A DNA stretch of 64,000 bases from Nakamurella leprariae (GTDB lineage: Bacteria; Actinomycetota; Actinomycetes; Mycobacteriales; Nakamurellaceae). Made by a program: the position numbers and the translations under genes. Below are positions 32,384 to 48,727 of this stretch, piece by piece. Numbering within the stretch: the stretch's first letter is position 1; each line of letters starts with the position of its first letter. Location: positions 62,001-126,000 of the forward strand of contig NZ_JAERWK010000015.1 of NCBI RefSeq assembly GCF_016918035.1, written 5' to 3'. Below the pieces are notes generated by a model. The model did not search any database. It worked only from the letters and a program-made list of their open reading frames with translations, and had not been told where the DNA came from.

Positions 32384-33082
32384 CTAGGAGTCGATGAAGC
32401 GGGTGTAGACGTCTGCCACCTCAGTGGCGGAGTCGGCGAGATGTGACGCCATCCTCCGCTCCGCCAATGTGGCGTTCCCGTCGGTGATCGCAGCGAGGAT
32501 CCGTCGGTGCGCGCGCTGGGTCGACGGCAGCACGACGTCGAAGTCCGTGCGGTCCAACGGCTCGAACATCGCCATCCGCGTCGTCTCGATGGCGTCCAAC
32601 AGCAGCGGAAGGTCGGCCATCTGCGCGATCGTGAGGTGGAACGCTGAATCCAGACTTCGGAAGGTGGCGACGTCCTCAGCCGTGTCGAGACCGCGGACGG
32701 CGCCTTCGAGCTCACCCAAGCCCTCGTCGGTCGGGCGTTCCGCGGCCCGGCGAGCCGCGAGTGGTTCGATGCGAGCCCGGAACTCGAGCAGTCCCTGCAG
32801 CTCGGACCAGCGCAGCGCGGGCGGGGTCCGGGCGTCCGGGGCCGCCGGAGCCTTGACGATCGAGCCTCCGTTGACGCCACGGCGCACCTCGATCAGGCCC
32901 TCGCCCTCGAGGACCCGGAGCGCCTCACGCAGGGTGACCCGCGAAACGCCCAGGCGTTCGGCATGCTCGCGCTCCGGTGGGAACCGCTCACCGGGCGAGA
33001 CCCGGCTCAGCATGATGTCCCGGCGAAGTCGTTCCAGCACCACCGAATAGGCAGCCGGAACGCGCACCTGGTGATCGGCCAT
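32384..33082 (-). CDS. FadR/GntR-family transcription regulator (FCD domain)
   Basis: 232 residues. N-terminal winged helix: RRDIMLSRVSPGERFPPERE and VSRVTLREALRVLEGEGLIEVRRG. C-terminal FCD all-helical domain with the metal-binding pattern of Asp and three His (SLDSAFHLTIA, AHRRILAAI, MASHLADSA). FCD regulators usually bind a carboxylate or amino acid ligand. It is divergent from the PuuD-like gene with 70 nt between, and an inverted repeat CCAAAG-N6-CTTTGG lies in that gap, a probable autoregulatory operator. ATG 33082 chosen because the wHTH then has its normal length. Likely controls the amide catabolic genes. Confidence 0.92.
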   Translation of the reverse strand: MADHQVRVPAAYSVVLERLRRDIMLSRVSPGERFPPEREHAERLGVSRVTLREALRVLEGEGLIEVRRGVNGGSIVKAPAAPDARTPPALRWSELQGLLEFRARIEPLAARRAAERPTDEGLGELEGAVRGLDTAEDVATFRSLDSAFHLTIAQMADLPLLLDAIETTRMAMFEPLDRTDFDVVLPSTQRAHRRILAAITDGNATLAERRMASHLADSATEVADVYTRFIDS

Positions 33083-33116
33083 GACCACGATCCTATCCGG
33101 CGTCGGTGCGCCATAC

Positions 33117-33134
33117 CCAAAGACGGTCCTTTGG
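33117..33134. promoter_or_regulatory. inverted repeat, probable operator of the FadR-type regulator
   Basis: CCAAAG (33117-33122) and CTTTGG (33129-33134) form a 6-bp palindrome around 6 nt, in the 70-nt space between divergent genes. It would overlap the regulator promoter and lies 19 nt before the PuuD-like start. Confidence 0.5.
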
Positions 33135-33152
33135 ACTAATCTGCGATCCATT

Positions 33153-33905
33153 ATGACACTTTCGACGAGACATCACGTCCGGAGCCGACCAGTCATCGGC
33201 CTGACGGGACGGCGTACCTCCGCTGCCCGCCTGGGAGCACCGCCCGGTTTCTGGGACGCCCAAGCGGACGCCTACTACAGCGAGTACGCGCGCAGCGTGG
33301 CGCACGCCGGTGGGCTTCCGTTCCACATCTCGCTGGATGCCGCAGCGACAGACGTCGGCGACGTGATCGACGCGTTGGTGCTGACCGGTGGGGACGACGT
33401 GGAACCGTCCCGGTACGGGAGCACGATCGGTCCCAGATCGACGGCCGTCGACCCAGACCGCGACGCGTTCGAGATCGCCCTGTTCGAGGCCGTCCTGCGG
33501 GCTGGCAAGCCGATCCTCGGCATCTGCCGTGGGAGCCAGCTGATCAACGTGGCGCTGGGCGGCACCTTGGTGTCGGACCTGCCCCTCGGTGAGGGAGCCT
33601 CCCACGCGTCGTACGCCTTCCCGAGGGCGCACCGTCGCCATGCAGTGCGGTTCGAGGTCGGCAGTAGGGCGCACGAGATGTACGGAGATCTGACGAGCGT
33701 CAACTCGTTCCACCACCAAGCGGTGGACCGAGTCGGTTCTGGACTGACCGTGACCGGACGAGCCGAGGACGGGGTCGTCGAGGCCATCGAGATGCACGAC
33801 GCACCGGTGCTCGGGGTCCAGTGGCATCCCGAGTGCTTCGCCTCCGACCCGGTGTTCGACTGGTTGGTCCACGCCGCCAGGAGTGACGTGGCCGCGGCGG
33901 GGTGA
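33153..33905 (+). CDS. gamma-glutamyl-gamma-aminobutyrate hydrolase-like class I amidotransferase
   Basis: 250 residues, PuuD-type peptidase C26. Seen: IGLTGRR start, VLTGGDDVEPSRYG, the nucleophile Cys125 in ILGICRGSQLINVALGGTL, and the His225/Glu227 pair in VQWHPECF, so the catalytic triad is complete. It hydrolyses a gamma-glutamyl amide and frees glutamate. It faces an operon with a glutamine-synthetase-like enzyme, aldehyde dehydrogenase and amino acid dehydrogenase, which supports removal of a gamma-glutamyl protecting group (inference). ATG 33153 has a TAATCT box 9 nt upstream and almost no leader, so the mRNA may be leaderless. Confidence 0.9.
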   Translation: MTLSTRHHVRSRPVIGLTGRRTSAARLGAPPGFWDAQADAYYSEYARSVAHAGGLPFHISLDAAATDVGDVIDALVLTGGDDVEPSRYGSTIGPRSTAVDPDRDAFEIALFEAVLRAGKPILGICRGSQLINVALGGTLVSDLPLGEGASHASYAFPRAHRRHAVRFEVGSRAHEMYGDLTSVNSFHHQAVDRVGSGLTVTGRAEDGVVEAIEMHDAPVLGVQWHPECFASDPVFDWLVHAARSDVAAAG

Positions 33906-33912
33906 CGCGCAG

Positions 33913-33956
33913 ATGAGGCGTACGCCCCGGCCTCAGGCCCGGGGCGTACGCCTCAT
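33913..33956. terminator. strong bidirectional terminator hairpin
   Basis: An 18-bp perfect stem (33913-33930 with 33939-33956) with an 8-nt loop lies between the convergent PuuD-like gene and the catabolic operon end (33970). It is the strongest hairpin seen in the window and closes both transcripts. Confidence 0.9.
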
Positions 33957-33969
33957 CGGTGTCCCGCCG

Positions 33970-35040
33970 TCAGGCGCCGCGGTCGATGCTGCGGAGGCGA
34001 CTCACGCCCGCCATCCGCTCCTCGGCCAGACGATCGGCGGTCGCTGCGGTCGTGAGGCCGGTGGATGCGGCGGTCTCCAGGACTCGCAGTGTGGTGTCGA
34101 AGATCCCGGTGGCGCGGACCTTCGCGCGCTCGAAGTCGAATCCGTGCACCTCGTCGGCGATCTGGATCACTCCGCCGGCGTTGACACAGTAGTCAGGGGC
34201 GTAGAGCACTCCCTTGGACGCGATCTCCTGGTCGATCCCCGGCTCCGCCAGCTGGTTGTTGGCTCCTCCGCAGATGATCTCGGCGTTGAGCGCAGCCAGC
34301 GAGGAGCGATCGATGGCGCCGCCCATGGCACACGGTGAGTAGATGTCCATGTCGACGCTCTGCAGTTCATCGGTGGATCCGACGACGGTGATGTGCGGGT
34401 ATCGGCCCGCCAGGGCGTCGATCGCCGCCTGGCTGGGATCGGTGATGGTGACGACTGCGTCCGCCTCGACCAGCAGTTCGGTCAGGCGCGAGCCGACCTT
34501 CCCGGCGCCCGCGATCGCGACCCGCTTGCCGCTCAGTGAGGTGCTGCCCCAGCGGTGCGCAGCGGCCGCCCGCATGCCCTGGAACACTCCCCACGCGGTC
34601 AGGATCGACGAGTCACCGGCTCCGCCCTGAGCGACGGTCCGGCCGGTCACGTAGGGCGTCTCGCGGGCCACCACGTCCATGTCAGGGCTGAACGTGCCGA
34701 CATCGCAGGCGGTGAGGTAGCGCCCGCTGAGTCCGTGGATGAAGCGGCCGTAGGCCCGCAGCACGATCTCGGACTTGTGCTTGTCGGGATCTCCGATGAT
34801 GACCGCCTTCCCCCCGCCGTGATCGAGCCCCGCCAGGGAGTTCTTGTAGGCCATCGCCTTGGACAGGCGCAACGCGTCGTCGAGGGCGTCCTGCGATGAG
34901 CTGTAGGGGTAGAAGCGGGTTCCGCCCATCGCCGGCCCGAGGGCCGTGGAGTACAGCGAGATGATGGCCTTGAGGCCGGATGCCTCGTCGTGACAGAACA
35001 CCACCTGTTCGTGGTCGCTGCTGAAGATGTCGTTGATCAT
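33970..35040 (-). CDS. leucine/valine-type amino acid dehydrogenase
   Basis: 356 residues, Glu/Leu/Phe/Val dehydrogenase family. Seen: LGPAMGGTRFYPY, the substrate/catalytic lysines in AMAYKNSLAGLDHGGGKAVI (Lys66, Lys78), CDVGTFSPDMDVV and the NAD-binding VAIAGAGKVGSRL, then YSPCAMGGAID and GGANNQLAEP. It oxidatively deaminates an aliphatic or aromatic amino acid to a 2-oxo acid and ammonia with NAD+. As last gene of the catabolic operon it would finish the conversion of an amino acid released by the PuuD-like enzyme (inference). ATG 35040 has AAGG upstream; 45 nt follow the ALDH gene. Confidence 0.92.
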   Translation of the reverse strand: MINDIFSSDHEQVVFCHDEASGLKAIISLYSTALGPAMGGTRFYPYSSSQDALDDALRLSKAMAYKNSLAGLDHGGGKAVIIGDPDKHKSEIVLRAYGRFIHGLSGRYLTACDVGTFSPDMDVVARETPYVTGRTVAQGGAGDSSILTAWGVFQGMRAAAAHRWGSTSLSGKRVAIAGAGKVGSRLTELLVEADAVVTITDPSQAAIDALAGRYPHITVVGSTDELQSVDMDIYSPCAMGGAIDRSSLAALNAEIICGGANNQLAEPGIDQEIASKGVLYAPDYCVNAGGVIQIADEVHGFDFERAKVRATGIFDTTLRVLETAASTGLTTAATADRLAEERMAGVSRLRSIDRGA

Positions 35041-35085
35041 GGCTCTTGCCTTCGTGTGAGGGGGTCCGGTTCGCGGATGCGCGAC

Positions 35086-36531
35086 TCAGATCACCGGGTC
35101 GAGCAGGTCTGCACCGACAACCTGCTTGCCGGCGAAGAACTCCAGGACGTCACGGTCGCCGTGCCCGCCCAGGCCGCTGGTACCGAAGAAGCTCTGGGCC
35201 GAGTCGGCGGCCATGTCCAGCAGACTCGTTCCGTTGAGCTTGACTTCACCGGCGACGATCTGGGCGCCGACCGCCATCCCGCGCTCCTCATCGCCGGTGA
35301 AGACGTACCCGGCGAGGCCACCGCCGAGCCCGTTCGCCCGGGTCACGGCCTGGGCATCGTCAAGCACGGGACTGATCGCCAGGACCGGGCCGAAGATCTC
35401 GCCGGGAAGGGGGATGTCGTCGCCGACGAGCAGCGTCGGCGAGAGGAACCAGCCGTGCTCGGGCGACGGGAGCGGGGCTAGGTGGCCGGCTCCCGCGGTG
35501 ACCATCTGCTGGATCTGGCCCTCCAGCACGGCTCGGCGGTCGGCGAACGCCAGCGGTCCGAAGGTCACCTCCGGGTGGGTGCTCGGTCCCAGGCGGAGCT
35601 GCTCGATCTCGGCCACCACTGCCTCGACCAGAGCCGGCACGAGACGGTGATGGGCGTGGACGACGCGCGGCGCCTCGCACCACTGCCCGTTCAGTTTGGT
35701 GAAACCGGAGGCCAGCGCGCGTGCAGTGACCGCCAGGTCGGCGTCCGCGAGGACCAGCGCCGGGTTGTTGGAACCCAGCTCCAGGCGCAGCCGGGTGAGG
35801 TTGCCACCGGCGCGCGAAGCCACCCGGCGACCCGTCTCCGTGGACCCGGTCATCGAGATGGCTCGGATGCGCGAGTCGCCCGCGACGAGCGCGCCGACAT
35901 GGGCGTCGCCGTGGATCAGCCCGAAGACCCCGTCCGGCACTCCGGCGGCCGCGAGCGCTGCGGCGATGAGCTCAGCACTCCAGGGTGACTCGGGCGATGG
36001 CTTGGCCACGACCGGCGCGCCGGCGATCAAGGCGTAGGTCAGGTTCTTGACCAGGACGGCGGCGGGCGCGTTCCAGGGGAGGAGCAGCGCGGTCGGACCC
36101 CAGGGCACGCGTCGCAGCTGCACGCTCCTGCCATCGGCCTCGAGCCACCTGGCGGCGGCCTGCTGTTGCGCGAGCTGCACTGCCCGGCGAACAGTTCCGG
36201 GCAGGCTCTGGGCGAACAGCCGGGTGAACCGCACGGGGACGCCGCTGTTGATCGCGTCCAGTGCTGCGATGTCGTCGGCCGCCTGCTCGAGCTGCGTGGC
36301 GAAGGCCGCGAGGACGGCAGCTCGTTCCGCCAGGTCGGCCCGCGCCCAGAGTCCAGATCGATGGGTCCTGACGGCCGCGGCGATCGCTGCGTCGACCTGG
36401 CCGTCACTGGAGAACGAGTACGTCTGGAGCAGGTCACCGGTGTTGGGGTCGAACAGGTCGCGGCGCAAGGTCGGTGCGGCGTTCGGGGTCGGCGCGCCGG
36501 CGATCCAGGTACGCGGAACGGGGGGTTGCAT
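35086..36531 (-). CDS. aldehyde dehydrogenase (NAD(P)-dependent)
   Basis: 481 residues. Seen: oxyanion Asn154 in LPWNAP, Lys177 in VVAKPSP, SMTGSTETGRRV for NAD binding, general base Glu251 in LELGSNNP and nucleophile Cys285 in NGQWCEAP; then GEIFGPVLAI. All catalytic residues are present. It oxidises an aldehyde to the acid. It sits 9 nt after the glutamine-synthetase-like gene and before the amino acid dehydrogenase, comparable to PuuC acting on a gamma-glutamylated aldehyde, though the partner oxidase PuuB is missing and an SDR takes its place. ATG 36531 follows GAGG. Confidence 0.92.
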   Translation of the reverse strand: MQPPVPRTWIAGAPTPNAAPTLRRDLFDPNTGDLLQTYSFSSDGQVDAAIAAAVRTHRSGLWARADLAERAAVLAAFATQLEQAADDIAALDAINSGVPVRFTRLFAQSLPGTVRRAVQLAQQQAAARWLEADGRSVQLRRVPWGPTALLLPWNAPAAVLVKNLTYALIAGAPVVAKPSPESPWSAELIAAALAAAGVPDGVFGLIHGDAHVGALVAGDSRIRAISMTGSTETGRRVASRAGGNLTRLRLELGSNNPALVLADADLAVTARALASGFTKLNGQWCEAPRVVHAHHRLVPALVEAVVAEIEQLRLGPSTHPEVTFGPLAFADRRAVLEGQIQQMVTAGAGHLAPLPSPEHGWFLSPTLLVGDDIPLPGEIFGPVLAISPVLDDAQAVTRANGLGGGLAGYVFTGDEERGMAVGAQIVAGEVKLNGTSLLDMAADSAQSFFGTSGLGGHGDRDVLEFFAGKQVVGADLLDPVI

Positions 36532-36540
36532 CGTGGTGCC

Positions 36541-37911
36541 TCAGATCCTGTCGAAGTAGCGGTCGAGATCCCAGTCGCCGGTGTGGGACATGAAGGTGCG
36601 CCACTCGTGCTCGGCCAGGATGGCCATGTGATGGCGTTGTTCCTCGCCGATGATGCGGGCGACGAAGTCCGCGTCGCGGAACAGGGCTGCGGCTTCGGCC
36701 AGGTTCGCCGGGAAGGTGGGATCCACCGGTGCCTCGTACCCGTTGCCCGTCGTCATGGGAGGCGGGGCGACGTCGTTGGCGATCCCGTCTCGCGCTGAGG
36801 CGATGAGCCCGGCCAACGTCAGGTACGGGTTCGTGTCGGCCCCGGGGAGACGGAACTCCAGGCGAAGGTCCTGCGGCTGCCGCCCGACGACGCGCAGCGA
36901 CGTCGTGCGGTTGTCCAGCCCCCAGGTGGTGCCCCAACCGGAGACGTCCCCCGAGTTCACCCGCCGGAAGGCGTTGACCGTGGGGGCGTACCAGGTCATG
37001 AACGCGGGCGCATGGTGAAGGACCCCGCCGATCGCGCCGCGCATGATGTCGCTGAGACGGTGCTCCGCGGTCGGATCCCAGAAGCTGGGCGTGCCGTGAC
37101 GATCCACCACGGACAGGTGGACGTGACATGAGGACCCTGGTTGGCCTTGGTTGAGCGGCTTGGCCATGAAGGTGGCCGACATGCCCGCGGCCGCGGCGCT
37201 GTCTCGGACCGCCAGCTTGTACAGGGCGTGTCGGTCAGCCATCTCCAGTGGCTCGCCGTACCGGAAGGTCATCTCCCACTGGCCGGAGCCCCACTCACTC
37301 TGGGCCGCTTCCATCTCGATCCGGGAGTCGCGCAGGTCCTGGCGCAGCTTGCGGAAGAACGGCTCGTAGTGGTTGCCCTCGTGGATCATGTAGTCCGAGG
37401 GACTCAGGGTGGTCGGCTCCAGGCCACGGAACCCGGCCTGCCGCAGTGCCCGTGGCTCGTTGCGGAAGAGGTAGAACTCCAGCTCCGTGCCCGTCTTGGC
37501 CGCGAAGCCGGCGTCGGTCAGGTCGGCGATCTGACGCTTGAGGATCTCGCGCGGTGAGATCGCCAGGGGTTCCCCGGTCTCCTTGTCCACGGCATCGGCG
37601 AAGCAGATCGCGATTCCGTCGAGCCAGGCTGCTCGGCGCAGCGTCGACAGGTCCGGGCGCAGCGTGAAGTCGGGGATCCCGTTGTGCACTCCGCAGACCT
37701 TGAAGACATTCGCCTCCACCAGGTCCAGGCTCTGCGTGAGATCCCAGGCGTAGATGCAGGTGCAGACGTCAACGCCCCCCTCCACCACACGATCGAAGCC
37801 TTCGATCGGGATCCGACGGCCGACCAGGCGACCCTGCAGGTCCGGGGTGGCGACGATCACGGTGTGGATGTCGTCGGTCAGGCCGGCATCGGCCAGGATC
37901 TGGGCGCTCAT
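36541..37911 (-). CDS. glutamine-synthetase-like gamma-glutamyl amine ligase
   Basis: 456 residues. Seen: the ATP/metal glutamates in TGTELEFYLF, MEAAQSEWGSGQWE and QPGSSCHVHLS, plus DNRTTSLRV and RLPGADTNPYL of the GS catalytic domain. The sequence belongs to the GS-like branch that joins glutamate to amines (PuuA, IpuC, GlnA3/GlnA4 type), not to ammonia-assimilating GlnA: the adenylylation region is not conserved and a Cys replaces Met in the usual GMH loop. ATG 37911 overlaps the SDR stop (ATGA); a GTG at 37923 would overlap further. Its product would be the substrate of the SDR/ALDH/PuuD-like steps. Confidence 0.85.
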   Translation of the reverse strand: MSAQILADAGLTDDIHTVIVATPDLQGRLVGRRIPIEGFDRVVEGGVDVCTCIYAWDLTQSLDLVEANVFKVCGVHNGIPDFTLRPDLSTLRRAAWLDGIAICFADAVDKETGEPLAISPREILKRQIADLTDAGFAAKTGTELEFYLFRNEPRALRQAGFRGLEPTTLSPSDYMIHEGNHYEPFFRKLRQDLRDSRIEMEAAQSEWGSGQWEMTFRYGEPLEMADRHALYKLAVRDSAAAAGMSATFMAKPLNQGQPGSSCHVHLSVVDRHGTPSFWDPTAEHRLSDIMRGAIGGVLHHAPAFMTWYAPTVNAFRRVNSGDVSGWGTTWGLDNRTTSLRVVGRQPQDLRLEFRLPGADTNPYLTLAGLIASARDGIANDVAPPPMTTGNGYEAPVDPTFPANLAEAAALFRDADFVARIIGEEQRHHMAILAEHEWRTFMSHTGDWDLDRYFDRI

Positions 37912-38678
37912 CGGGTCAGCCACCCGCCGTCGACGGGCAGCTGGACGCCGTCGATGAAGGACGCTTCATCGGACAGGAGGAAGGAGACCGCCTTGGCGAC
38001 GTCCTCGGGTTGACCGACCCGGGGAATCAGCAGGCGTTGTCTCATGAACGCCAGACCCGCCTCGGAGGTGACCGTCTCCAGATCGAAGAAGTTGGTGGCG
38101 ATGGGGCCGGGGGCGACGCAGTTCACCCGGATGCCGTCGCCGGCGAGTTCCACCGCCAAGGCCTTGGTCAGCATCGGGACGCCGCCCTTGCTGGCGTTGT
38201 AGTGCGGCTGCGAGGTCGCACCCGAGGTGACCACGACCAGTGCTTCGATCGTGGAGAGGTTCACGATGGCCCCACCGCCGCTGCGGGCCATGGCCTTGCC
38301 GACGGCTCGGGCGACGAGGAACTGACCCTTGAGGTTGACGTCGACGACCAGATCCCAGGCCTCTTCGGTGAGGGTGGCCAGCGAGTGGCTGGTCACCACG
38401 CCGGCGTTGTTGGCCAGCAGATGGATCCCGCCGAACGTCGCCTCCGCCCGGGCGACAGCGGCGTCGATCTGCTCCGCGCTCCGGACGTCGAGCGGAGCGG
38501 CGATGGCCTCGCCACCGTTCGCGGCGATGGCCTCGGCGACGGTCGTGGCGGCGGTCTCGTCGACGTCCGTGACGACGATGCGGGCCCCTTCGGCTGCCAG
38601 GTGCTCGACGATCGACCGGCCGATACCGGCGCCGGCGCCGGTGACGAACGCGACCTTGCCCTCATGACGGCGCTTCAC
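37908..38678 (-). CDS. short-chain dehydrogenase/reductase
   Basis: 256 residues, classical SDR. Seen: TGAGAGIG (13-20), an Asp in VVTDVDE that favours NAD+, NNAGV, Ser in NLSTIEAL, and YNASKGG with catalytic Tyr and Lys, then the C-terminal DGGWLTR. It oxidises an alcohol or reduces a ketone. It starts with GTG in a GTGA overlap with the dimethylformamidase-like gene and ends in an ATGA overlap with the ligase, so the three are made in fixed ratio. Likely role: oxidation of an amino alcohol or its gamma-glutamyl derivative to the aldehyde (inference). Confidence 0.9.
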   Translation of the reverse strand: MKRRHEGKVAFVTGAGAGIGRSIVEHLAAEGARIVVTDVDETAATTVAEAIAANGGEAIAAPLDVRSAEQIDAAVARAEATFGGIHLLANNAGVVTSHSLATLTEEAWDLVVDVNLKGQFLVARAVGKAMARSGGGAIVNLSTIEALVVVTSGATSQPHYNASKGGVPMLTKALAVELAGDGIRVNCVAPGPIATNFFDLETVTSEAGLAFMRQRLLIPRVGQPEDVAKAVSFLLSDEASFIDGVQLPVDGGWLTR

Positions 38679-40909
38679 GCTGTGGTTCCTTCCATGGTGT
38701 CGATCTCGGCGAACCGCCGGACGACGTTCTCTGTCATTCGCGAAATGCCGTTGTTCGAGTTGTTCTCGAGCAAGGCACCTGAGTAGGCGATGGACCCGGC
38801 GGCGAAAACCGCTCCTCCCTGCGAGGTCTCGAAGTAGACGATGTCGGAGTGCACCTCTGGGTCGACGTCCCCGCCGTGCTGGCCGTCGAGGATGAAGGCG
38901 ACTTCCGAGGCGTCCCGTTGGTAGGTGCGACCGTGGTCGCGCGAGGCCGCCAGGATGATTGCGTTGGCGGGTGTGCCCAGGACCGGATCCGCCCGGTCGA
39001 GTTCATCGCCGGCTGCGCCGCCCATCACTCGCCCGTAGTTGCCGAGGGGCTCCTCGTCCACGCCTTCGAAGATCCAGGCGAGCTCGGGCGCGAACGATGC
39101 GTCCGTCCGCCAGTACGGCTGTGATCCACCCCAGCCCTGCGCCGCCATCCCGATGCCCACCAGGCGCTGCGGCTCACGGCCGCGGTGCCGCCAGGCTCCG
39201 CCGAGCAGCCCGGTCGACACCAGGTGCGTCTCGCCCGGTCGGGACTTCCACGCCGTGATGCCGGCGAAGCCCCGACGGACCTCCACGACCAAGGGGGACT
39301 CGGAGACGACCCCGGTCACCCAGTAGAAGCCGTTGCCGCCGATGTACACCATGCGGCCGCCCGAGTCGCGGTACTGCTCGAGCGCGTCCAGCATCTCGCT
39401 GGAGTAGTACTCGGGATGCGCCCCGGTCACGACCACCTTCCACCCGCGCAGATAGTCGGTGCCGAGCTTGTGCAACTCGAAGTCGGTGATCACGTCGAAC
39501 TCGATGCCGACGCTGGCCAGCCACTCCAGCAGGTACATCTCGGCCGAGAAGCCGCGGCCGCTGTCGCTGAGCCACATGCGGTAGTCGTGCCGGGTGTTGA
39601 CGATGGGGCGTGCTGCGCTGGAGTACACGACCCCGTGTCCGTCGGGGTGTGTGTCGTACTGCGAGAGCCCGAAGGTGCCGTTGCCGACGTGCGCGAGGTC
39701 GGCCTCGCCGGGTTCAGTCGTGAAGTGCCCGGTCACCGAGGGCGCCATGCCTTCGAACAGGGATTCGTTGGCGTAGGACAGGTAGGTGAAGGTCGGCACC
39801 ACCACCACGACCGGCTTGCGGGTGTCCCCCGGGGCCGGCGCCACCACGAACGGGACGAAGTCCACTGCGTGCTCGGTGGCGATCCGGAGGGCGTAGGCCC
39901 CGGAGGGCAGGTCGGCGGGGAGCGCCCCGGTGAGGGTCTCCGTCCAGCCGGAGTCCGACAGGTCGGTCTCGTGGAAGTGCGCGGCCGAGTACTCCGTGGG
40001 CGCCTCGATGAAGCGAGTGGTCCGCCGCTGCCAGTTCGGTCCGGGGACCCCACGGGTCGGCAGGTTGTAGAGCTGGCCGGAGGTGCCACCGGCGATGTTC
40101 GTGGCGACGCCGTCCTCGCCCGACGCAGGGAACAGGTCCCAGGCGCCCAGCAGTTCGACCTCGGAGTCCGCCGGGTCGAGGGTGCGTTGCCTGGCCAGTG
40201 TCCGCAGCTGTTGCGGACTCAGGACACCGTCGGCCACGAACGGCCAGCTGATCGTGGCGGTGAGATTGGCAGTGGCGCGCCCGTGGGCCGTGGGGCCGGT
40301 GCCGTGGGTCACGATCGGGAACGCCCCGGCGACCACCACCTGGTCGCCGATGGAGACGCTGCCTGCCAGGTGGCCGCTGGCCGAGCTGGACTCCACCCCG
40401 CCTTCGACCGCGATGGCATGGACCTGGGTGCGGTCGTCGTCGACGATGCCGACGAGGAGGTACCACGCATTCGGCTCGAGCGGCTCGGGGCTGGAGAGGG
40501 TTCCCGCGGGATCGTGGGTCTTGAGCACCACCCGGGAGTCCTCGACGCCGAGGGTGACGAGCCGCTGTTCGTCCCCCACCGTCACGATGGACTGCGGCGT
40601 CGAGCCGACCTGGCCGTCGAAGCGCACGAAGGCGCCGATGGTGAGTCGGGCGCCGGGCGCTGTGCGGAGGGTGCCGGTCATGAAGCCGCCGAAGTGACCG
40701 TCCTGGCCGTCGACGGTGAGGGTGGTCGCGTCGGGCCAGGTGATCTCGGTGGTCTGTCCTTCCCGCCCGGGCGAGTCCAGGGCTGTGTCCAGGTGCACCA
40801 GGGCGATGCTTGCCTGGGCTCGGGTCGGACTCGAGACGTACACGCGGATCGGATCGCCCGGGAAGTACGACAGTCGGTCGGTGTACGAGGTCAAGATCGA
40901 GGGAATCAT
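38675..40909 (-). CDS. N,N-dimethylformamidase large-chain homologue (amidohydrolase)
   Basis: 744 residues, near the 762 of the Paracoccus/Alcaligenes enzyme. N-terminal strands and a concanavalin-like domain (about 60-260) lead to the catalytic domain. The iron site of the known enzyme is two Tyr and one Glu (399, 440, 521). Here Tyr379 in SYANE, Tyr418 in SQYDTHPDG and Glu500 in GAHPEYYS have almost the same spacing (39 and 82 versus 41 and 81), so the metal site looks intact. It should hydrolyse an amide bond. The small chain of the classical enzyme is not present nearby. ATG 40909 follows AGGAG. Substrate unknown; the operon argues for a larger amide than dimethylformamide. Confidence 0.88.
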   Translation of the reverse strand: MIPSILTSYTDRLSYFPGDPIRVYVSSPTRAQASIALVHLDTALDSPGREGQTTEITWPDATTLTVDGQDGHFGGFMTGTLRTAPGARLTIGAFVRFDGQVGSTPQSIVTVGDEQRLVTLGVEDSRVVLKTHDPAGTLSSPEPLEPNAWYLLVGIVDDDRTQVHAIAVEGGVESSSASGHLAGSVSIGDQVVVAGAFPIVTHGTGPTAHGRATANLTATISWPFVADGVLSPQQLRTLARQRTLDPADSEVELLGAWDLFPASGEDGVATNIAGGTSGQLYNLPTRGVPGPNWQRRTTRFIEAPTEYSAAHFHETDLSDSGWTETLTGALPADLPSGAYALRIATEHAVDFVPFVVAPAPGDTRKPVVVVVPTFTYLSYANESLFEGMAPSVTGHFTTEPGEADLAHVGNGTFGLSQYDTHPDGHGVVYSSAARPIVNTRHDYRMWLSDSGRGFSAEMYLLEWLASVGIEFDVITDFELHKLGTDYLRGWKVVVTGAHPEYYSSEMLDALEQYRDSGGRMVYIGGNGFYWVTGVVSESPLVVEVRRGFAGITAWKSRPGETHLVSTGLLGGAWRHRGREPQRLVGIGMAAQGWGGSQPYWRTDASFAPELAWIFEGVDEEPLGNYGRVMGGAAGDELDRADPVLGTPANAIILAASRDHGRTYQRDASEVAFILDGQHGGDVDPEVHSDIVYFETSQGGAVFAAGSIAYSGALLENNSNNGISRMTENVVRRFAEIDTMEGTTA

Positions 40910-40940
40910 CGAGGCTCCTGACGAGATGGGGGACGGGTCG

Positions 40941-41933
40941 TCAGCGCGACGACCGGTGGATCCAGAAGCGAACGCCTTCGAGCGCTGCCGCGAGGACGAG
41001 GACAGCGCCGGTCAGGACCTGGCTCAGCTGGGAACTGACGTTCATCAGCGTGATGCCGTTGGTCAGGATGCCCATCAGCCAGACGCCCACCACGACGCGC
41101 CACAGATGGCCCTTGCCGCCGGAGTACGGAATGCCTCCGAGCAGCACTGCGGTCAGGACACTGATCTCGAAGCCGGCCCCCAGCGTGCCGCTGGGGGCGC
41201 TGTCGAGGCGCGCAACGACCATGAGACCGCCCAGAGCACTGAGGGTCCCGACCAATGCATACAGACTGAGGACGAGGCGCCGGACTGGGATTCCGCTCAG
41301 GTACGCGGCTCGGCTGTTGACGCCGACGGCGACGACATGGCGGCCGGCCGGCAGGAGCGTCATGACCAGTGCCCCGAGTGCGACCACGAACACCGCGATC
41401 CACACGAGCGTGGGGACGCCGAGCACGCGGGCGTTGCCGAACTCCAGCACGGCGCTCGGGAAGCCGTAGAGCGCGTCCGGGGACAGCACCTGGGCCAGCC
41501 CGCGACCGGCTGCCAGGATGCCCAGGGTGACGATGATCGGTGAGAGCTTGAAGTAGCCGATGAGCACGCCGTTGAGCAGGCCGACCGCGAGACCGACGCC
41601 GAGGCCCACCATCACGCCTGCCGTCACGCCGGCCGAGTTGAAGGTGAGACCGGCGCAGACCCCGGAGACGGCCATCACCGAGCCGATCGAGAGGTCGATG
41701 TACCCGGACATCAGCAGGAGCGCGGCTCCCACCGCGACGACCATCAGGGGCGCTGACTGAAGCGCGATCAGCAGCAGATTGTCCTTGGTGAGGAACGAGG
41801 AGTGGTTGACGGCGAAGAAGATCATCAAGCCGACCGTCGCGACGGGCATGATGCTGTCGATGCCGGTGAGGAGCCCGGACTTCAGCGACGGGGCCGGCTC
41901 GGACTTCGCGTCGGTGGCGATCACTTCGGTCAT
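40941..41933 (-). CDS. ABC transporter permease (RbsC-type)
   Basis: 330 residues, about nine helices. Seen: AVNHSSFLTKDNLL, AALLLMSGYIDLSIGSVMAVSGV, the family core LNGVLIGYFKLSPIIVTLGILAAGRGLAQVLS and the C-terminal VLLGGIPYSGGKGHLWRVVVGV. It is the membrane channel of a CUT2 importer; a single permease gene serves as homodimer. ATG 41933 overlaps the ATPase stop (ATGA) and is preceded by AAGGGA. 31 nt separate it from the amidase gene. Confidence 0.93.
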   Translation of the reverse strand: MTEVIATDAKSEPAPSLKSGLLTGIDSIMPVATVGLMIFFAVNHSSFLTKDNLLLIALQSAPLMVVAVGAALLLMSGYIDLSIGSVMAVSGVCAGLTFNSAGVTAGVMVGLGVGLAVGLLNGVLIGYFKLSPIIVTLGILAAGRGLAQVLSPDALYGFPSAVLEFGNARVLGVPTLVWIAVFVVALGALVMTLLPAGRHVVAVGVNSRAAYLSGIPVRRLVLSLYALVGTLSALGGLMVVARLDSAPSGTLGAGFEISVLTAVLLGGIPYSGGKGHLWRVVVGVWLMGILTNGITLMNVSSQLSQVLTGAVLVLAAALEGVRFWIHRSSR

Positions 41934-43480
41934 GCGGCGGTGTTCCCTTCGGATCGGACCTCGCTGGGTCCGGATGATGGGGCGGGCTGGGCCAGCACCA
42001 TGAGCTCCCGCTCGGCCGTGTCGCCCGGCACGATCCCGACGATGCGGGATTCGGCGAGAACGACCACACGGTCGGCCAGTGCGTTGAGCTCCTCGACGTC
42101 GCTGGAGACGAAGATGACCGCGCGTTCGCTCTCGCGCGCGAACTCTCGGATCATGCGGTGCAGTTCTGCCCGCGCACCGACGTCGACGCCCTGGGTGGGT
42201 TCATCGAGCAGCAGCAGGGTGACGCCGCTGCCGTCCATGAGCCATCGGCCCATCACCAGCTTCTGCGCGTTGCCGCCCGAGAAGCGATCGCCGGCCAGGC
42301 CCGCGGACATCGGATGGAGCGACATGCGTCCGGCGACTGAGTCGAAGACGTGCTGCTCGACCCTTGGTCGGCGCCAACCCCGGGACAGCCTCCGATAGTG
42401 CGGCATCAGCACGTTCTCCTGGGCCGAGAGCGAGGAGAACAGGGACTGCGACTTGCGATCGGACGGGACCAGCGCGATGCCCGACCGCCGGGCGATCCCG
42501 GGCGAGGACAGCCGGAGATCACTTCCGGCCAACCGGAACCCACCCTCGCTGGGCCTGGCTCCGGCCAGTGCCTCGACCAGGTTGGTCCGCCCGGAACCGA
42601 GCAGCCCGAAGACTCCGACGATCTCGCCGGCGCCGATCCGCACGGAGACGCCCGGTGCGCCGGACGCGCGGAAGTCGGCAAGCTCGAGCAGGGGCGGCCG
42701 GTCATGCTGGACCGGGCGGTTCTCGCTCGTGGCGGTGGCGGCTCGGGCGACGGGGGCCCCGGTGATGCCCTCGATGAGTGTCTCGATGCCGAGGTCGGCC
42801 GTGGGTCGAGTCCACTCCACGCTGCCGTCGCGCAGGACCGAGACCTCATCGGCGACCGCCGTCACCTCGCGGAGAAGGTGGGTGACGTACACGATCGCAA
42901 GGCCGGACTCGTGGGCGAGCCTGGTGATCAGGCCCAGCAGGATGTCGGTCTCCCGCGAACTCAGGGCCGCCGTGGGCTCATCGAGGATCAGGACCTCGGG
43001 CCGATGGTGCAGGGCCTTCGCGATCTCGACGACCTGCTTCTGTCCCATGGTCAGCGACGTGAGCGGTCGGGACGGATCGAAGTCCGCTCCGACCCGATCC
43101 AGCAGTTCGGAGGCGATCCGGCGCTGTGCGGCCTTCCGAACGGTGCCGAACGGGGTCCGTTGCTCACTGCCCAGGAAGATGTTCTCCACCGCCGACAGGT
43201 CGCTCACGAGCTCGAGGTGCTGGTAGATGATCGCTGTCCCAGCCTTGAGCGCTGACTGGGGCGTGAAGCCGGTGTGGGTCAGACCGTTCACGGTGATCGT
43301 CCCCGCGTCCGGCCGTACCGCGCCGCTCAGACAGCCCAGCAGGGTCGACTTGCCCGCACCGTTGGGTCCCAGCAGGGCGTGGATCCGACCCGCCCGGATC
43401 TGCAGGTCGACGCCCCGCAGGACCACGTTGTTGCCGTACGACTTGCTCAGACCGTGGATGGTCATGCCGCTCATCGGCAT
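41930..43480 (-). CDS. sugar-type ABC transporter ATPase (two nucleotide-binding domains)
   Basis: 516 residues, RbsA-type double ATPase. First half: Walker A GPNGAGKST (38-46), LTMGQKQVVEIAKAL signature, Walker B LILDEPTAAL. Second half: a degenerate Walker A (FGLLGSGRTNLVE), FSGGNAQKLVMGRWL, LLLLDEPTQGVDVG. This intact-plus-degenerate arrangement is normal for CUT2 ATPases, which import pentoses, autoinducers or other small polar molecules. Ligand not readable. ATG 43480 is used; an ATG at 43474 is also possible. It lies 31 nt after the binding-protein gene. Confidence 0.94.
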   Translation of the reverse strand: MPMSGMTIHGLSKSYGNNVVLRGVDLQIRAGRIHALLGPNGAGKSTLLGCLSGAVRPDAGTITVNGLTHTGFTPQSALKAGTAIIYQHLELVSDLSAVENIFLGSEQRTPFGTVRKAAQRRIASELLDRVGADFDPSRPLTSLTMGQKQVVEIAKALHHRPEVLILDEPTAALSSRETDILLGLITRLAHESGLAIVYVTHLLREVTAVADEVSVLRDGSVEWTRPTADLGIETLIEGITGAPVARAATATSENRPVQHDRPPLLELADFRASGAPGVSVRIGAGEIVGVFGLLGSGRTNLVEALAGARPSEGGFRLAGSDLRLSSPGIARRSGIALVPSDRKSQSLFSSLSAQENVLMPHYRRLSRGWRRPRVEQHVFDSVAGRMSLHPMSAGLAGDRFSGGNAQKLVMGRWLMDGSGVTLLLLDEPTQGVDVGARAELHRMIREFARESERAVIFVSSDVEELNALADRVVVLAESRIVGIVPGDTAERELMVLAQPAPSSGPSEVRSEGNTAA

Positions 43481-43511
43481 GGCACGCGTTCCTCGCGCCG
43501 CGTCGCGCTGC

Positions 43512-44525
43512 TCATCCGCCCTGCTGCGCGATCAGCTCGTCGAGCTCGCTGGGATCATCGAGCGAAGCCGGGATGACAGCGGCCTCGGTCTCGGTCTCGC
43601 CCGAGCCTGTGATCGCGTTGATCGAGTTCTGAACGATGGCGTGGCTCAGGTCGATCATGTCGATGGCAGCCGACACCTTGTAGGCGCCGCCGGCCTTGAC
43701 CGCCTTCAGCGCCTCGATGTTGCCGTCCTGACCGGCGATGAAGACCTCGCTGGGATCGATGCCCTTGCTCTGGAACGCCTTGAGCGCGCCCAGGGCGGCG
43801 TCGTCGTTGGCGCCGATGTAGATCCGCAGATCCGGGTTCGCGTTGAGCAGCGCCTCGGCCTGCTCCAGCCCGCAGGTCTGGTCGGAGCAGTCCTGCAAGG
43901 AGATCACTTCCACACCGGCGTCGGAGATCAACTTCTGCGGCTGCTCCCAGCGGCCCCGGACGTCAGGCACGGCGGTGATGGAGGTGATCGCTGCGGTCAC
44001 CTTGCCGCTGAGTTGGTGCTCAGTGATCCAGTCGACAGCAGCCTGGCCCACGATGTCGCCGCTGGCGACGTTGTCGAAGCCGGTGTAGCCGTCCACGCCC
44101 TCACCGGGCGTGGCGTACTGGAGCCACTTGATGCCGGCCGACTGCGCCTGCGTCCGCAGTGGGGTGAGCGCCTTCGCGTCCACCGGGAACACGACCACGG
44201 CGTCAACCCCCTGAGTCACCCAGGTCTCGACGGTGTTCCGCTGGGATTCCAGGTCACTGGCCTGCGTGTCATCGAAAAGAACTTCCACGCAACCGATCTC
44301 CTTCGCCTGGGCCGTGACTTGGCTCTTCAGACCCTTGACGAAGGCGGCCTCACTGATCGGATGCGAGAACCCGATCTCGTAGGTCGTCTCACAGCCGGAC
44401 GCGGCTGCGGCGTCGTCCGAGCCGCCGCACGCGCCGAGCGTCAGTGCCAGCAGCGCAGCGGCGGTCACGCCGACCGTACCTCGCGCCTTCCTCGTCGTCA
44501 GCATCGCTGCGATCACCCGTCCCAT
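43512..44525 (-). CDS. substrate-binding lipoprotein of the CUT2-type ABC importer
   Basis: 337 residues. Seen: signal peptide with lipobox LTLGAC (Cys33), then a periplasmic-binding-protein fold of the RbsB/type I class: IGFSHPISEAAFVKGLKSQV, VDAVVVFPVDAKAL, WLQYATPGEGVDGYTGFDN, and IYIGANDDAALGALKAFQSKG. Extra cysteines in the mature part (GCET, IGC, DCSDQTC) may form disulfides. It determines the ligand, which probably is the amide or amine degraded by the operon. First gene of the eight-gene operon; a 7-7-7 palindrome sits 10 nt before its ATG. ATG 44504 would shorten the signal n-region. Confidence 0.93.
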   Translation of the reverse strand: MGRVIAAMLTTRKARGTVGVTAAALLALTLGACGGSDDAAAASGCETTYEIGFSHPISEAAFVKGLKSQVTAQAKEIGCVEVLFDDTQASDLESQRNTVETWVTQGVDAVVVFPVDAKALTPLRTQAQSAGIKWLQYATPGEGVDGYTGFDNVASGDIVGQAAVDWITEHQLSGKVTAAITSITAVPDVRGRWEQPQKLISDAGVEVISLQDCSDQTCGLEQAEALLNANPDLRIYIGANDDAALGALKAFQSKGIDPSEVFIAGQDGNIEALKAVKAGGAYKVSAAIDMIDLSHAIVQNSINAITGSGETETEAAVIPASLDDPSELDELIAQQGG

Positions 44526-44848
44526 GGTCGGTTAGTTGGTCTGCGTTGTAGACCAATCATCCGGGGACCATAGCGGTCGACCCCGCCCCGTGAACAGACC
44601 CTCGAGACATGTTGCGTTCTCGCGCCGTTCAGCAACAGTCGCGGCGCCGACAGCCACGCTGCGGTGGGGGCACGCATGAGATCCAGGTGCCGCCACCCCA
44701 GCGTGAGCCTCGGGCACACCACGGACCAGGACAGCCCTCCCACCGATCCGGACAGCATCGACTGTTCGTAACACAGCCGTTGTTGGCTTCGCGAGCTGTC
44801 CTGACGGGCCACCCGGGGACGATCTGGATGAGGACGAGGAGACCGCAC
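44526..44848. other. divergent control region of the catabolic operon
   Basis: 323 nt between the binding-protein gene and the NTF2-like gene, with no gene. It contains the TTGGTCT-N7-AGACCAA operator candidate (44536-44556) and a 9-bp inverted repeat with a long loop (44727-44735 with 44795-44803) of doubtful meaning. Confidence 0.65.
44536..44556. promoter_or_regulatory. 21-nt perfect interrupted palindrome, operator candidate
   Basis: TTGGTCT (44536-44542) and AGACCAA (44550-44556) are perfect inverted arms around 7 nt. On the minus strand it ends 10 nt before the ATG of the binding-protein gene and would cover the promoter. Half-site resembles those bound by GntR/FCD or LacI-type repressors. 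It differs from the inverted repeat at 33117. Confidence 0.6.
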
Positions 44849-45226
44849 ATGAGCGCCGCGAATGCCAAGACCGTCGAGGACGCCAGGGCACGGTTCCCGC
44901 TGCTGTTCAACGAGGGCCGCTTCGACGAGCTCGGCACCTGGTTCTATGCGGAGGACGCGATCGCCCTGCCGGCCGATCACGACCTCATCGAAGGGCGAGG
45001 GCCCATCTGCGACTACCTCGCGGGGCTGCGTGAGGCAACTGGACTGCGCTTCGAGCTCGGCGTGCTGAAGATCGTGGCCGGGGCGAGCAGTGCCAGCGTC
45101 ATCGGTACCTACGTCGCCACCACGGCCGACGGCGCTCGCGCCGAAGGTCTCACGCACGAAGCCTGGGTGCGCCAGTCCGACGGAACCTGGAAGTGCAGCG
45201 TCGACATGTGGCACGACAGGCCGTGA
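44849..45226 (+). CDS. SnoaL/NTF2-like small protein
   Basis: 125 residues. Seen: an N-terminal helix (TVEDARARFPLLFNEGRFDELGTWF), DAIALPADHDLIEGRGPICDYLAGL, then beta strands LRFELGVLKIV and the C-terminal GTWKCSVDMWHD. This is the cone-shaped NTF2/DUF4440 fold, used by isomerases, hydrolases and as non-catalytic domain. The conserved signature does not reveal a reaction. ATG 44849 follows GAGGAG. It is divergent from the amide operon across its control region and followed by the GlxA-type regulator; a side role in the same pathway is possible. Confidence 0.85.
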   Translation: MSAANAKTVEDARARFPLLFNEGRFDELGTWFYAEDAIALPADHDLIEGRGPICDYLAGLREATGLRFELGVLKIVAGASSASVIGTYVATTADGARAEGLTHEAWVRQSDGTWKCSVDMWHDRP

Positions 45227-45321
45227 GGTCCGCGGCCCCGACCTCCGACCGGCGGCGCCGCGTCCCGGTCGGGGGACCCGGGCCGGAACGGTGGGTGGCG
45301 CAGGTGCCTAGGATCCCTGGA

Positions 45322-46311
45322 ATGCCTCCACGGGAAGTGGTGATGTTCCTGTTCGACGGCGCGCAGCCGCTCGATGTCACCGGCCCGTACGACGCCTTCA
45401 ACGGCGCCGCCAGGGTCTCCTCATCGCTGACGGACCCGCCCTACGTGGTGCGGATCGCAACGATCGGTGGCCGACCGGTGCGCCTGGTCGGTGGGCTCAT
45501 GGTCGTTCCCGACCTGGACATCGATGATGTGGGGCGCACGGACATCCTGCTCGTGCCCGGTGGCCCTGGTGCGGAGACTCCCGATCCCGAGGTGGCACAG
45601 AGGCTGCGCCGCCTGGGCCCGGATGCCCGTCGGTTGACATCGGTCTGCACGGGTGCGCTGCTGCTCGCCGAAGCTGGGCTGTTGGACGGCAAGCGGGCCA
45701 CCACCCACTGGTCGTTCTGTGGCCACCTGGCCAGGGAGTACCCCGAGGTCAAGGTCCAGCGGTACCCCATCTTCGTCGAGGACGACGGCGTCTTCACCTC
45801 GGCCGGGGTGACCGCCGGGATCGACCTGGCCCTCGCATTGATCGAGCAGGACCACGGTCGCGAGCTCGCTCTCCAGGTCGCCCGGCTGCTCGTGGTCTTC
45901 GTCCGTCGGCCGGGCCACCAGGCTCAGATCAGCACTCAGCTGACTGTCCAGTCGAACGGGCCGGCCCGCCTCGGCGACGTCCGCGCGTGGATCGCTGATC
46001 ACCTCGACGACGACCTGTCGGTCACCGCCCTTGCCGAGCGGATGCCGATGTCGCCTCGCAACTTCGCCCGGCTGTTCCTGAGCGAGACAGGTACGAGCCC
46101 GGGCCGCTACGTCGAGCGGGTCCGGGTCGAGGCCGCTCAACGGATGCTGACCGACACCCGGGACAACGTCGACCTCATCGCCCGATCGTGTGGCTGGGGC
46201 TCCTCGGAGGCGATGCGACGGGCGTTCACTCGGACCCTGGGCGAGTCGCCCGCCGGCTACCGACTCAGGCACTCCACACCGGGAAGCCGGCGCTCGACAC
46301 CCGTTGCGTGA
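45322..46311 (+). CDS. GlxA-family AraC regulator with DJ-1/PfpI domain
   Basis: 329 residues. N-terminal DJ-1/PfpI-like domain (VVMFLFDGAQPLDVTGPYDAF, LLVPGGPGAETP, SVCTGALLLAEAGLLDGKRATTHW) with the family Cys in SVCTGA; C-terminal AraC helix-turn-helix pair (LSVTALAERMPMSPRNFARLFLSETGTSPGRYV, RSCGWGSSEAMRRAFTRTLGESPAGYR). GlxA-type regulators often activate amine, betaine or amino acid catabolism, which suits the neighbourhood. ATG 45322 begins near the first strand. Ends 12 nt from the convergent Lrp gene. Confidence 0.92.
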   Translation: MPPREVVMFLFDGAQPLDVTGPYDAFNGAARVSSSLTDPPYVVRIATIGGRPVRLVGGLMVVPDLDIDDVGRTDILLVPGGPGAETPDPEVAQRLRRLGPDARRLTSVCTGALLLAEAGLLDGKRATTHWSFCGHLAREYPEVKVQRYPIFVEDDGVFTSAGVTAGIDLALALIEQDHGRELALQVARLLVVFVRRPGHQAQISTQLTVQSNGPARLGDVRAWIADHLDDDLSVTALAERMPMSPRNFARLFLSETGTSPGRYVERVRVEAAQRMLTDTRDNVDLIARSCGWGSSEAMRRAFTRTLGESPAGYRLRHSTPGSRRSTPVA

Positions 46312-46323
46312 TGGTGCCCGCGC

Positions 46324-46809
46324 TCAACCGACACCGACATCTTCGCTGCGAGACCAGTCGTACATGACGATCATCGTCTTGGTGCCGGTCACCTTGCGCG
46401 TACGCCGGATGGTGTTGACGACGCGCTGCAGGTGGTCGACGTCGTGCACGCGCAGCCGCACCAGCACATCCGGATCACCGGCGACGGTGAAGAAGTGCTC
46501 CACCTCCGCCATCTGGCGCAGCTGCTCCTCCAGATCCCCGGTCTCGGTGTCGCCGGTGAGCCGGATCTCCACGAAAGCATGCAGATCCCCCGCTGCTCGA
46601 TCGTCGATGACGGTGACGTAGCCGCGGATGACGCCTTCCTGCTCCAGGCGCGCGATCCGGCGGCTGACCGGCGCGGGTGACAGCTGCACGTCCCGCGCGA
46701 GCTGGGTCACGGGTACTCGGGCGTCCGTGCGCAACCGCTCCAGCAACTGTCGGTCGACCTGATCCAAGTGCACCGTCCGACGCGTCGTCCGGGATTCGTG
46801 CTCGGCCAT
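46324..46809 (-). CDS. Lrp/AsnC-family regulator
   Basis: 161 residues. Seen: DQVDRQLLERLRTDARVPVTQLARDVQLSPAPVSRRIARLEQEGVIRGYV (winged HTH; family pattern clear) and an RAM ligand domain with AFVEIRLTGDT, EVEHFFTVAGDPDVLVRLRV. Lrp proteins sense amino acids. Divergent from the ThDP-enzyme operon with 138 nt between, so it probably controls that operon in response to an amino acid. ATG 46809 chosen because the HTH then starts at the usual distance. Confidence 0.92.
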   Translation of the reverse strand: MAEHESRTTRRTVHLDQVDRQLLERLRTDARVPVTQLARDVQLSPAPVSRRIARLEQEGVIRGYVTVIDDRAAGDLHAFVEIRLTGDTETGDLEEQLRQMAEVEHFFTVAGDPDVLVRLRVHDVDHLQRVVNTIRRTRKVTGTKTMIVMYDWSRSEDVGVG

Positions 46810-46877
46810 GAACGCATGATGCACGACCTGACCGTGGCCGCGAGCTTCTCGTGCGAATGTCCGCACGGAATCACGAC

Positions 46878-46932: not shown

Positions 46933-46947
46933 CTCAAGGAGCGTGTG

Positions 46948-48702: not shown

Positions 48703-48727
48703 TCCCCGAACCCAGAGGCAGAGCATC

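Follow-up and report, generated by a model that had tools for sequence, protein, structure and literature searches.

The window analysed here, a 64,000-nucleotide stretch of a Nakamurella leprariae contig (NZ_JAERWK010000015.1, positions 62,001 to 126,000), carries a block of 15 genes (32384-51052) in which an importer, a DMFA2-type amidase, a glutamine synthetase (GS)-like ligase, dehydrogenases and a short 2-oxo-acid dehydrogenase E1 lie side by side. The block is delimited by a common low G+C content at third codon positions (GC3), which is 0.818-0.899 in its genes versus 0.903-0.975 in 20 flanking genes (Mann-Whitney p = 6e-7; the flanking genes were hand-picked from the open reading frames (ORFs), and one of them, 52767-54041, overlaps an alternative ORF on the opposite strand). 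On account of this shared low GC3 the block looks acquired. The two tRNA genes of the window lie at 1.6 and 5.5 kb, distant from it.

At the center of the block are eight tightly spaced minus-strand genes (33970-44525), which, with intergenic gaps of -16 to +45 nt, fit a single operon. Beginning at the upstream end, these code for a CUT2-type importer composed of a substrate-binding protein (SBP; 43512-44525, Pfam Peripla_BP_4 117.7 bits), a double ATPase (41930-43480, Pfam ABC_tran in two stretches) and a permease (40941-41933, Pfam BPD_transp_2 114.7 bits); a predicted DMFA2-type iron amidase without an adjacent small subunit (38675-40909, Pfam DMFA2_C 280.7 bits); a short-chain dehydrogenase (SDR; 37908-38678, Pfam adh_short_C2 210 bits); the GS-like ligase, predicted to be a gamma-glutamyl-amine ligase (36541-37923, Pfam Gln-synt_C 285.9 bits); an aldehyde dehydrogenase (ALDH; 35086-36531, Pfam Aldedh 322 bits); and a leucine/valine-type amino acid dehydrogenase (33970-35040). 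Beside them, a PuuD-like gamma-glutamyl hydrolase of the Peptidase_C26 family is encoded on the plus strand (~33156-33905, with the start codon chosen by us; Pfam Peptidase_C26 203 bits), opposite in direction to a GntR/FCD-type regulator on the minus strand (32384-33151; Pfam GntR and FCD both above cut-off). Every one of these genes had been named in an earlier note made from the sequence alone, and the ORF and Pfam/NCBIfam profile results bear out their presence. The operon described there holds for the eight closely packed genes; the hydrolase gene, being divergent, lies outside the operon's transcript in the window.

The earlier note had recognized this importer/enzyme part and overlooked the remainder of the block. 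The latter adds a small ORF without a Pfam or NCBIfam match (44837-45226), for which the name SnoaL-like is our own reading and which, at 29% identity to TpdB, was rejected as a TpdB; an AraC-type regulator with a DJ-1/PfpI domain (Pfam; 45313-46311, plus strand); an Lrp/AsnC-type regulator (Pfam; 46324-46866, minus strand); an acetolactate-synthase-like thiamine diphosphate (ThDP) enzyme (46948-48702, plus strand; TIGR00118 596.3 bits, cut-off 538.35); and a short AceE-like E1 (48728-51052, plus strand), which falls far below the cut-off of its best NCBIfam model, the aceE equivalog (202.6 versus 859.9 bits).

Catalytic residues of the encoded enzymes

Among proteins of solved structure, the amidase matches dimethylformamidase (DMFase; 6lvb, 368 bits) and N-acetyl-(R)-beta-phenylalanine acylase (8huy, 325.8 bits). 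Six DMFase residues, Y399, Y440, H519, E521, N547 and E657, bind iron or proved important (PMC7686228), and all six are conserved in the window protein. Across 64 homologues four of them are invariant, with N547 and E657 each in 63 of the 64 (the exceptions being one D and one masked letter). Judged by these alignments, the protein is an amidase with an intact DMFase-type catalytic site. In its domain, its length and these six residues it resembles the DMFase/N-acetyl-(R)-beta-phenylalanine acylase (DMFA2) family at large; it differs from DMFase in its linkage to CUT2 importer and GS-like ligase genes, and in that no small subunit was found. A search with DmfA1 gave no match in the window or the source genome, while the same query detects relatives at three other amidase loci (L053, L070 and L069).

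For GS-type enzymes, 12 positions for metal, glutamate and ADP have been named, along with D50, Y179 and E327, which handle ammonium; the loss of the latter is the criterion that the same authors applied to GlnA4 (PMC6529630). The window ligase is identical to E. coli GlnA at 11 of the 12, the sole exception being N264, which is P here and also differs from GlnA in all seven other rows of the alignment. The three ammonium residues are replaced by V, D and V, respectively, and an ordinary glutamine synthetase was rejected on this ground. Retention of the metal/ATP/glutamate residues with loss of those for ammonium points to ligation of an amine rather than ammonium, and the protein is probably a gamma-glutamyl-amine ligase, as the earlier note had held and as the residue pattern bears out at the sequence level. 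Its best two solved relatives are GS-like chains (265.5 and 242.3 bits), and it scores 164.5 bits to 8wwu, the 1-naphthylamine ligase of PMC11335346, and 154.7 bits to a glutamate-methylamine ligase chain.

The other enzymes of the block likewise retain much of their active sites. The hydrolase keeps the Cys and His-x-Glu of the PuuD alignment, the ALDH keeps the Cys and Glu aligned with E. coli PuuC, and the catalytic residues of the SDR are conserved. The leucine/valine-type dehydrogenase scores 335.6 bits to leucine dehydrogenase 6acf and 286.3 bits to tryptophan dehydrogenase 5b37. The E1 has the ThDP glutamate of AceE (E571) and the AceE histidines H106, H142 and H640. As for the importer, the solved relatives of the SBP are diverse, and a named sugar importer was rejected, since among the NCBIfam rows listed for the three importer proteins (25 of 190 rows in the case of the ATPase) none attains its cut-off.

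Recurrence of the gene set in other genomes

The amidase is a single-copy gene in the source genome, and its occurrence elsewhere is scattered, which fits horizontal acquisition. At the order level, 25 of 298 genomes match at 1e-10, with G012 (78%) the sole high-identity match besides the source genome, and with none of the 16 further genomes of the genus that this search listed having the gene; in the family of G012, one of five genomes has the gene. At the class level, 17 of 394 genomes match at 1e-80, with no further match above 45%. One scan of genome contigs returned three loci, including an Aeromicrobium endophyticum amidase at 58%; in the Aeromicrobium family 19 of 294 genomes match at 1e-60, the best after Aeromicrobium itself reaching 46-50%.

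In G012 the genes from the E1 through the GntR regulator are colinear with the window at 76-87% identity (GntR/FCD regulator, SDR and Lrp regulator 82% each, AraC-type regulator 81%, E1 87%); the acetolactate-synthase-like and SnoaL-like genes find no match in this cluster, nor does an acetolactate-synthase-like gene lie beside it. The A. endophyticum cluster reads SBP, ATPase, permease, amidase, PuuD-like hydrolase, SDR, ligase, ALDH, GntR, Lrp and E1, at 42-77% identity (GntR/FCD regulator 42%, SDR 69%, Lrp 59%, E1 77%), with a partial match to the AraC-type regulator (98 aa) and none to the SnoaL-like ORF in the stretch. Here, unlike in the window, the hydrolase gene is inside the operon, directly 3' of the amidase, and after the E1 come a lipoyl E2 gene (PF00364 and PF00198), the remnant of an acetolactate-synthase-like gene and an aminotransferase. 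Importer, amidase, SDR, ligase, ALDH and hydrolase are thus together in three genomes, and the linkage that the earlier note had wanted to see among homologues is indeed conserved, colinear in one case and rearranged in the other. Lrp and E1 accompany all three orthologous loci, while the leucine/valine-type dehydrogenase, one of the six enzymes of that note, is in the cluster at only two. A 64% relative of this dehydrogenase is encoded elsewhere in the Aeromicrobium genome, where its two scanned neighbors have malic-enzyme-like and amidophosphoribosyltransferase-like Pfam domains. The earlier scheme includes conversion of an amino acid to a 2-oxo acid, and the aminotransferase and E1/E2 genes next to the cluster in Aeromicrobium strengthen this step. 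Clusters that otherwise match may therefore rely on different classes of enzyme for it, and this provides the main support for the proposed lower pathway.

For a broader view, we compared 66 amidase loci (10.9-32.2 kb, the window's own included) with 39 control stretches of 19.9 kb at offsets chosen in the same genomes (L130-L168; L129 was fetched alongside and is not a control). The loci come from 17 of the 25 order-level genomes (source included; eight with weak, short matches were left out), all 16 non-source genomes of the class search, 18 of the 19 in the Aeromicrobium-family search (G739 was left out, its match coordinates being the same as those of G620) and 11 of 80 plasmid records with an amidase match, near-identical Agrobacterium records having been left out; an extra stretch of G138 with two weak places (L045) was removed before counting. 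The set includes near-duplicates (L053/L070) and, by the tree, close relatives (L073, L074, L075 and L077), and some query proteins were drawn from loci within it (L050, L053). A GS-like gene is near 9 of the 66 amidase loci versus none of the 39 controls (no p-value was calculated), and the corresponding counts are 16/66 versus 0/39 for the CUT2 permease, 8/66 versus 0/39 for the FCD regulator and 7/66 versus 1/39 for the C26 hydrolase. ALDH (16/66 versus 5/39) and SDR genes (23/66 versus 5/39) discriminate less than the GS-like gene, and the leucine-type dehydrogenase is near three loci versus one control. Given the colinear set in G012, the rearranged one in A. endophyticum and the GS-like gene counts, recurrence of the gene set exceeds chance.

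A FastTree phylogeny of 64 of these 66 amidases (L043 and L044 were too distant) groups the window protein with those of G012 and Aeromicrobium (support 1.0). The sister group of these three consists of six sequences from the Nocardioidaceae family and two from Rhodococcus plasmids, which makes an 11-locus clade (support 0.996). Within this clade the CUT2 importer is found at 9 of 11 loci, the C26 hydrolase at 7, the ligase at 6 in the fetched stretches (plus one Rhodococcus plasmid with a ligase ~22 kb away), the ALDH at 3 and the leucine-type dehydrogenase at 2; three loci (L103-L105) have amidase and importer without a ligase, and another (L106) ends with its contig at the amidase. Among the sister sequences, L102, L107 and R. 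opacus have in common a glutaminase, C26 hydrolase, APC permease, FCD regulator, ligase, unnamed protein, SDR and amidase. The R. opacus copy adjoins a gene annotated tpdB, and a R. pyridinivorans plasmid encodes homologues of R. opacus TpdA (79%) and TpdB (54%). These tpd plasmids (amidase 45% identical to that of the window) share with the window the amidase clade, SDR, GS-like ligase, C26 hydrolase and a nearby FCD regulator; they differ in having an oxygenase, glutaminase and APC permease, with no ALDH match in the examined stretches, where the window has the importer, ALDH, amino acid dehydrogenase and E1. The protein beside the sister-clade ligase is ~340-350 aa long (L050:4163-5224 in R. 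opacus; L102:6387-7403) and has no Pfam match in either copy and no NCBIfam match in the former. Two near-duplicate Rhizobium plasmids (L053, L070) carry an amidase, a small-subunit relative, a GS-like ligase, an ALDH and an N-formylglutamate amidohydrolase, which are the families of the ethanolamine route discussed below save its alcohol dehydrogenase, and represent a different build of the same amide/gamma-glutamyl idea.

The E1 belongs to a family of short AceE-like proteins (~780 aa; for example 48728-51052 of the window, L046:18036-20369, L182, L183 and L185) that recurs in Actinobacteria beside Lrp/AsnC regulators and lipoyl E2 genes, often with DUF3263 and acetolactate-synthase-like genes. 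Aeromicrobium has three copies, two of them outside the cluster. On three Rhodococcus plasmids a related E1 stands beside E2 and DUF3263 genes, two of these also having the Lrp and acetolactate-synthase-like genes, and the third an ACC (1-aminocyclopropane-1-carboxylate) deaminase and a lipoyl synthase, with an Lrp-type gene ~4 kb on. On an Arthrobacter plasmid the E1 adjoins an AsnC-type regulator and an aminotransferase, and a Tritonibacter relative (42%) is in a sugar-importer-like cluster with a pyridoxal-phosphate-dependent transferase and no annotated E2. ACC deaminase produces 2-oxobutyrate, and its presence beside a related E1 makes a small 2-oxo acid no more than a reasonable guess for the E1 substrate.

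With respect to regulation, the palindrome TTGGTCTGCGTTGTAGACCAA (44536-44556, no strand), 10 nt upstream of the SBP start codon, is the sole match in the window at at least 13/16; five shuffles gave 1, 0, 0, 2 and 0 such matches, so that on its own it is not significant. G012 has a 15/16 site between the hydrolase and regulator genes and L102 two 14/16 sites with the same spacing, while the Aeromicrobium stretches have no similar site. FCD control through this candidate operator is weakly suggested. Neither GntR-type consensus patterns in the promoter regions nor a direct-repeat scan turned up a convincing site or repeat family.

Relation to described gamma-glutamyl pathways

The closest described analogue is the GlnA4 ethanolamine route of Streptomyces coelicolor (SCO1611-1615) and Chromohalobacter salexigens, in which a ligase, alcohol dehydrogenase, ALDH and amidohydrolase are arranged around a gamma-glutamyl amide (PMC6529630; PMC9397018); the steps that follow the ligase were predicted by the authors of PMC6529630. 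It has in common with the window a GS-like ligase that has lost the ammonium residues, predicted alcohol oxidation, an ALDH and the predicted release of an amino acid from the gamma-glutamyl amide; the ethanolamine pathway has ligase and ALDH together, and in the window the two genes are adjacent. However, the GlnA4 route uses an iron alcohol dehydrogenase (PF00465) and a formylglutamate-amidohydrolase-type enzyme (PF05013), neither of which is among the Pfam matches of the 15 block proteins, whereas the window has the SDR and Peptidase_C26. The amidase, CUT2 importer, leucine-type dehydrogenase and E1 are features of the window, none of them described for the GlnA4 route in the sections consulted. 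The Ipu isopropylamine route forms gamma-glutamyl-alaninol via a P450 system, and an amidotransferase-type hydrolase has been postulated for it (PMC6776027). It is comparable in gamma-glutamyl capping, in the type of hydrolase and in the gamma-glutamyl amino alcohol intermediate that we propose for the window, but it starts from a free amine, involves a P450 or other monooxygenase step and releases the amino alcohol before oxidation. No Ipu-type monooxygenase for a glutamylated amine is among the Pfam matches of the 15 block proteins, to which this search was confined. The Puu pathway shares the ligase, ALDH and C26 hydrolase families and differs in its PuuB-type oxidase, which is not recognized in the block; membership in it was rejected, with the ligase at 184.5 versus 650 bits for the PuuA and the hydrolase at 77.9 versus 266 bits for the PuuD equivalog cut-off.

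Our literature search, which missed most subscription papers, found no published description of the amidase/gamma-glutamyl combination. The earlier note knew of no described pathway with this set, which to that extent agrees for the exact combination but is overstated for comparable pathways: the logic of capping, oxidation and release has already been proposed for ethanolamine, and a gamma-glutamyl amino alcohol is made in the Ipu route. Each type of step is known, and the novelty, which that note framed as greater, is in the combination: the amidase and importer in front, the SDR/C26 pair in place of the iron alcohol dehydrogenase and PF05013, and the 2-oxo-acid part behind.

A proposed amide pathway and its alternatives

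From the gene content, linkage, catalytic residues and shared composition, all of them directly observed, we infer, tentatively and with slightly less than even confidence, the substrate, step order, chemistry and regulation of an acquired catabolic block for an imported amide, the amine half of which is most likely a primary amino alcohol. The scheme of the earlier note remains the best available, and its logic is largely supported. Here, the CUT2 importer would take in the amide, which the predicted iron-dependent amidase would cut, giving a carboxylic acid plus an amine. With ATP and glutamate, the GS-like ligase would then cap the amine as a gamma-glutamyl amide, the SDR and ALDH would oxidize its alcohol to an acid, and the PuuD-like hydrolase would free glutamate and an amino acid. 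From the latter the leucine-type dehydrogenase, or perhaps the aminotransferase in Aeromicrobium, would produce a 2-oxo acid, which the short E1, together with a lipoyl E2, would convert to an acyl-CoA. The FCD regulator may govern uptake and the upper part, and the Lrp regulator the lower part. A primary alcohol would need an ALDH, and the presence of one with the ligase in all three window-type clusters favors such a substrate. The GlnA4 route lends this proposal the support of analogy.

Several observations weigh on the other side. The isolated large subunit of DMFase is inactive (PMC7686228), while no small subunit turned up in the window or the genome. At 57 of the 66 amidase loci the stretch has no ligase match; the hydrolase gene is outside the operon in the window; and the leucine-type dehydrogenase is absent from the Aeromicrobium cluster. 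As regards the lower part, the E1 alignment shows no conservation at the AceE active-site positions H407 and E522, no E2 was found near the E1 in the window or G012 (E2-type genes occur elsewhere in both genomes), and Lrp, E1, E2 and acetolactate-synthase-like genes occur on their own elsewhere.

A more far-reaching version, which we consider doubtful, is that these genes make up a full pathway, mobile by horizontal transfer, that leads from an amide in the environment to an acyl-CoA and comprises import, iron-amidase action, gamma-glutamyl-protected oxidation of a primary amino alcohol, amino acid release, deamination or transamination, and a dedicated short E1/E2. Possible amines are then 2-amino-1-butanol, alaninol and branched amino alcohols. 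The sister version on the Rhodococcus plasmids would in this case carry out the lower half of tetramethylpyrazine degradation, a part not known to have been described. If the proposed amide pathway is correct, the little explored DMFase-type iron amidases would be coupled to gamma-glutamylation with a substrate class suggested for them, amino alcohols freed from amides would gain a candidate fate, and lower steps would be proposed for pyrazine degradation.

The same plasmids also lend weight to the first of the alternatives, in which the amine is a secondary amino alcohol or an acetoin-type amino ketone, as expected after tetramethylpyrazine cleavage; the SDR substrate would then be a secondary alcohol, and the ALDH would serve a different aldehyde. 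This would accord with the sister-clade amidases that accompany tpd genes, an SDR, a ligase and a C26 hydrolase in Rhodococcus, and with the lack of an ALDH match in the eight sister-clade stretches. Yet the ALDH directly follows the ligase in all three window-type clusters, tblastn with TpdA and TpdB gave no match in the window at 1e-8, and with a ketone as the product it is not clear what the leucine-type dehydrogenase would do; we regard this alternative as unlikely. Ranking after it, and likewise unlikely, is a block made of two units unrelated to each other, one being an amide/gamma-glutamyl operon and the other an independent Lrp-E1-acetolactate-synthase-like unit for 2-oxo acids. Rhodococcus plasmids have the Lrp, E1, E2 and acetolactate-synthase-like genes where no gene within ~8 kb is annotated as DMFase-type, and the two further E1 copies in Aeromicrobium are in keeping with this; however, the halves are adjacent in all three clusters found and alike in composition in the window, and the leucine-type dehydrogenase or aminotransferase would connect them. 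It is rather improbable that the SDR and ALDH have the acid half of the amide as their substrate, with the ligase merely capping a plain amine. Sequence does not reveal the order of steps, and capping of a plain amine has a precedent in the Ipu route, but an alcohol dehydrogenase and ALDH beside a GS-like ligase match the ethanolamine route, and for a plain amine an oxidase or monooxygenase would be required, none being recognized among the island proteins. Finally, a dimethylformamide or methylamine route with a glutamate-methylamine ligase, which the DMFase family of the amidase and the GS family of the ligase might suggest, is highly improbable and was rejected, with no small subunit found in the window or genome, a ligase scoring 154.7 bits to the glutamate-methylamine ligase chain versus 265.5 to the best chain, and C1 enzymes not recognized in the block (N-methylglutamate enzymes were not searched for in the rest of the genome).

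Two further associations of these families came to light. The unannotated plasmid NZ_CP113952.1 (Rhodococcus sp. JS3073) has, at ~75-114 kb, relatives of the amidase (44%), the GS-like ligase (36%) and the short E1 (59%) within ~40 kb. Transketolase-like matches (28-33% to the E1) are found 1-8 kb from other DMFA2-type amidases at L036, L037, L031, L110 and L111, and this proximity is possibly another recurring association.

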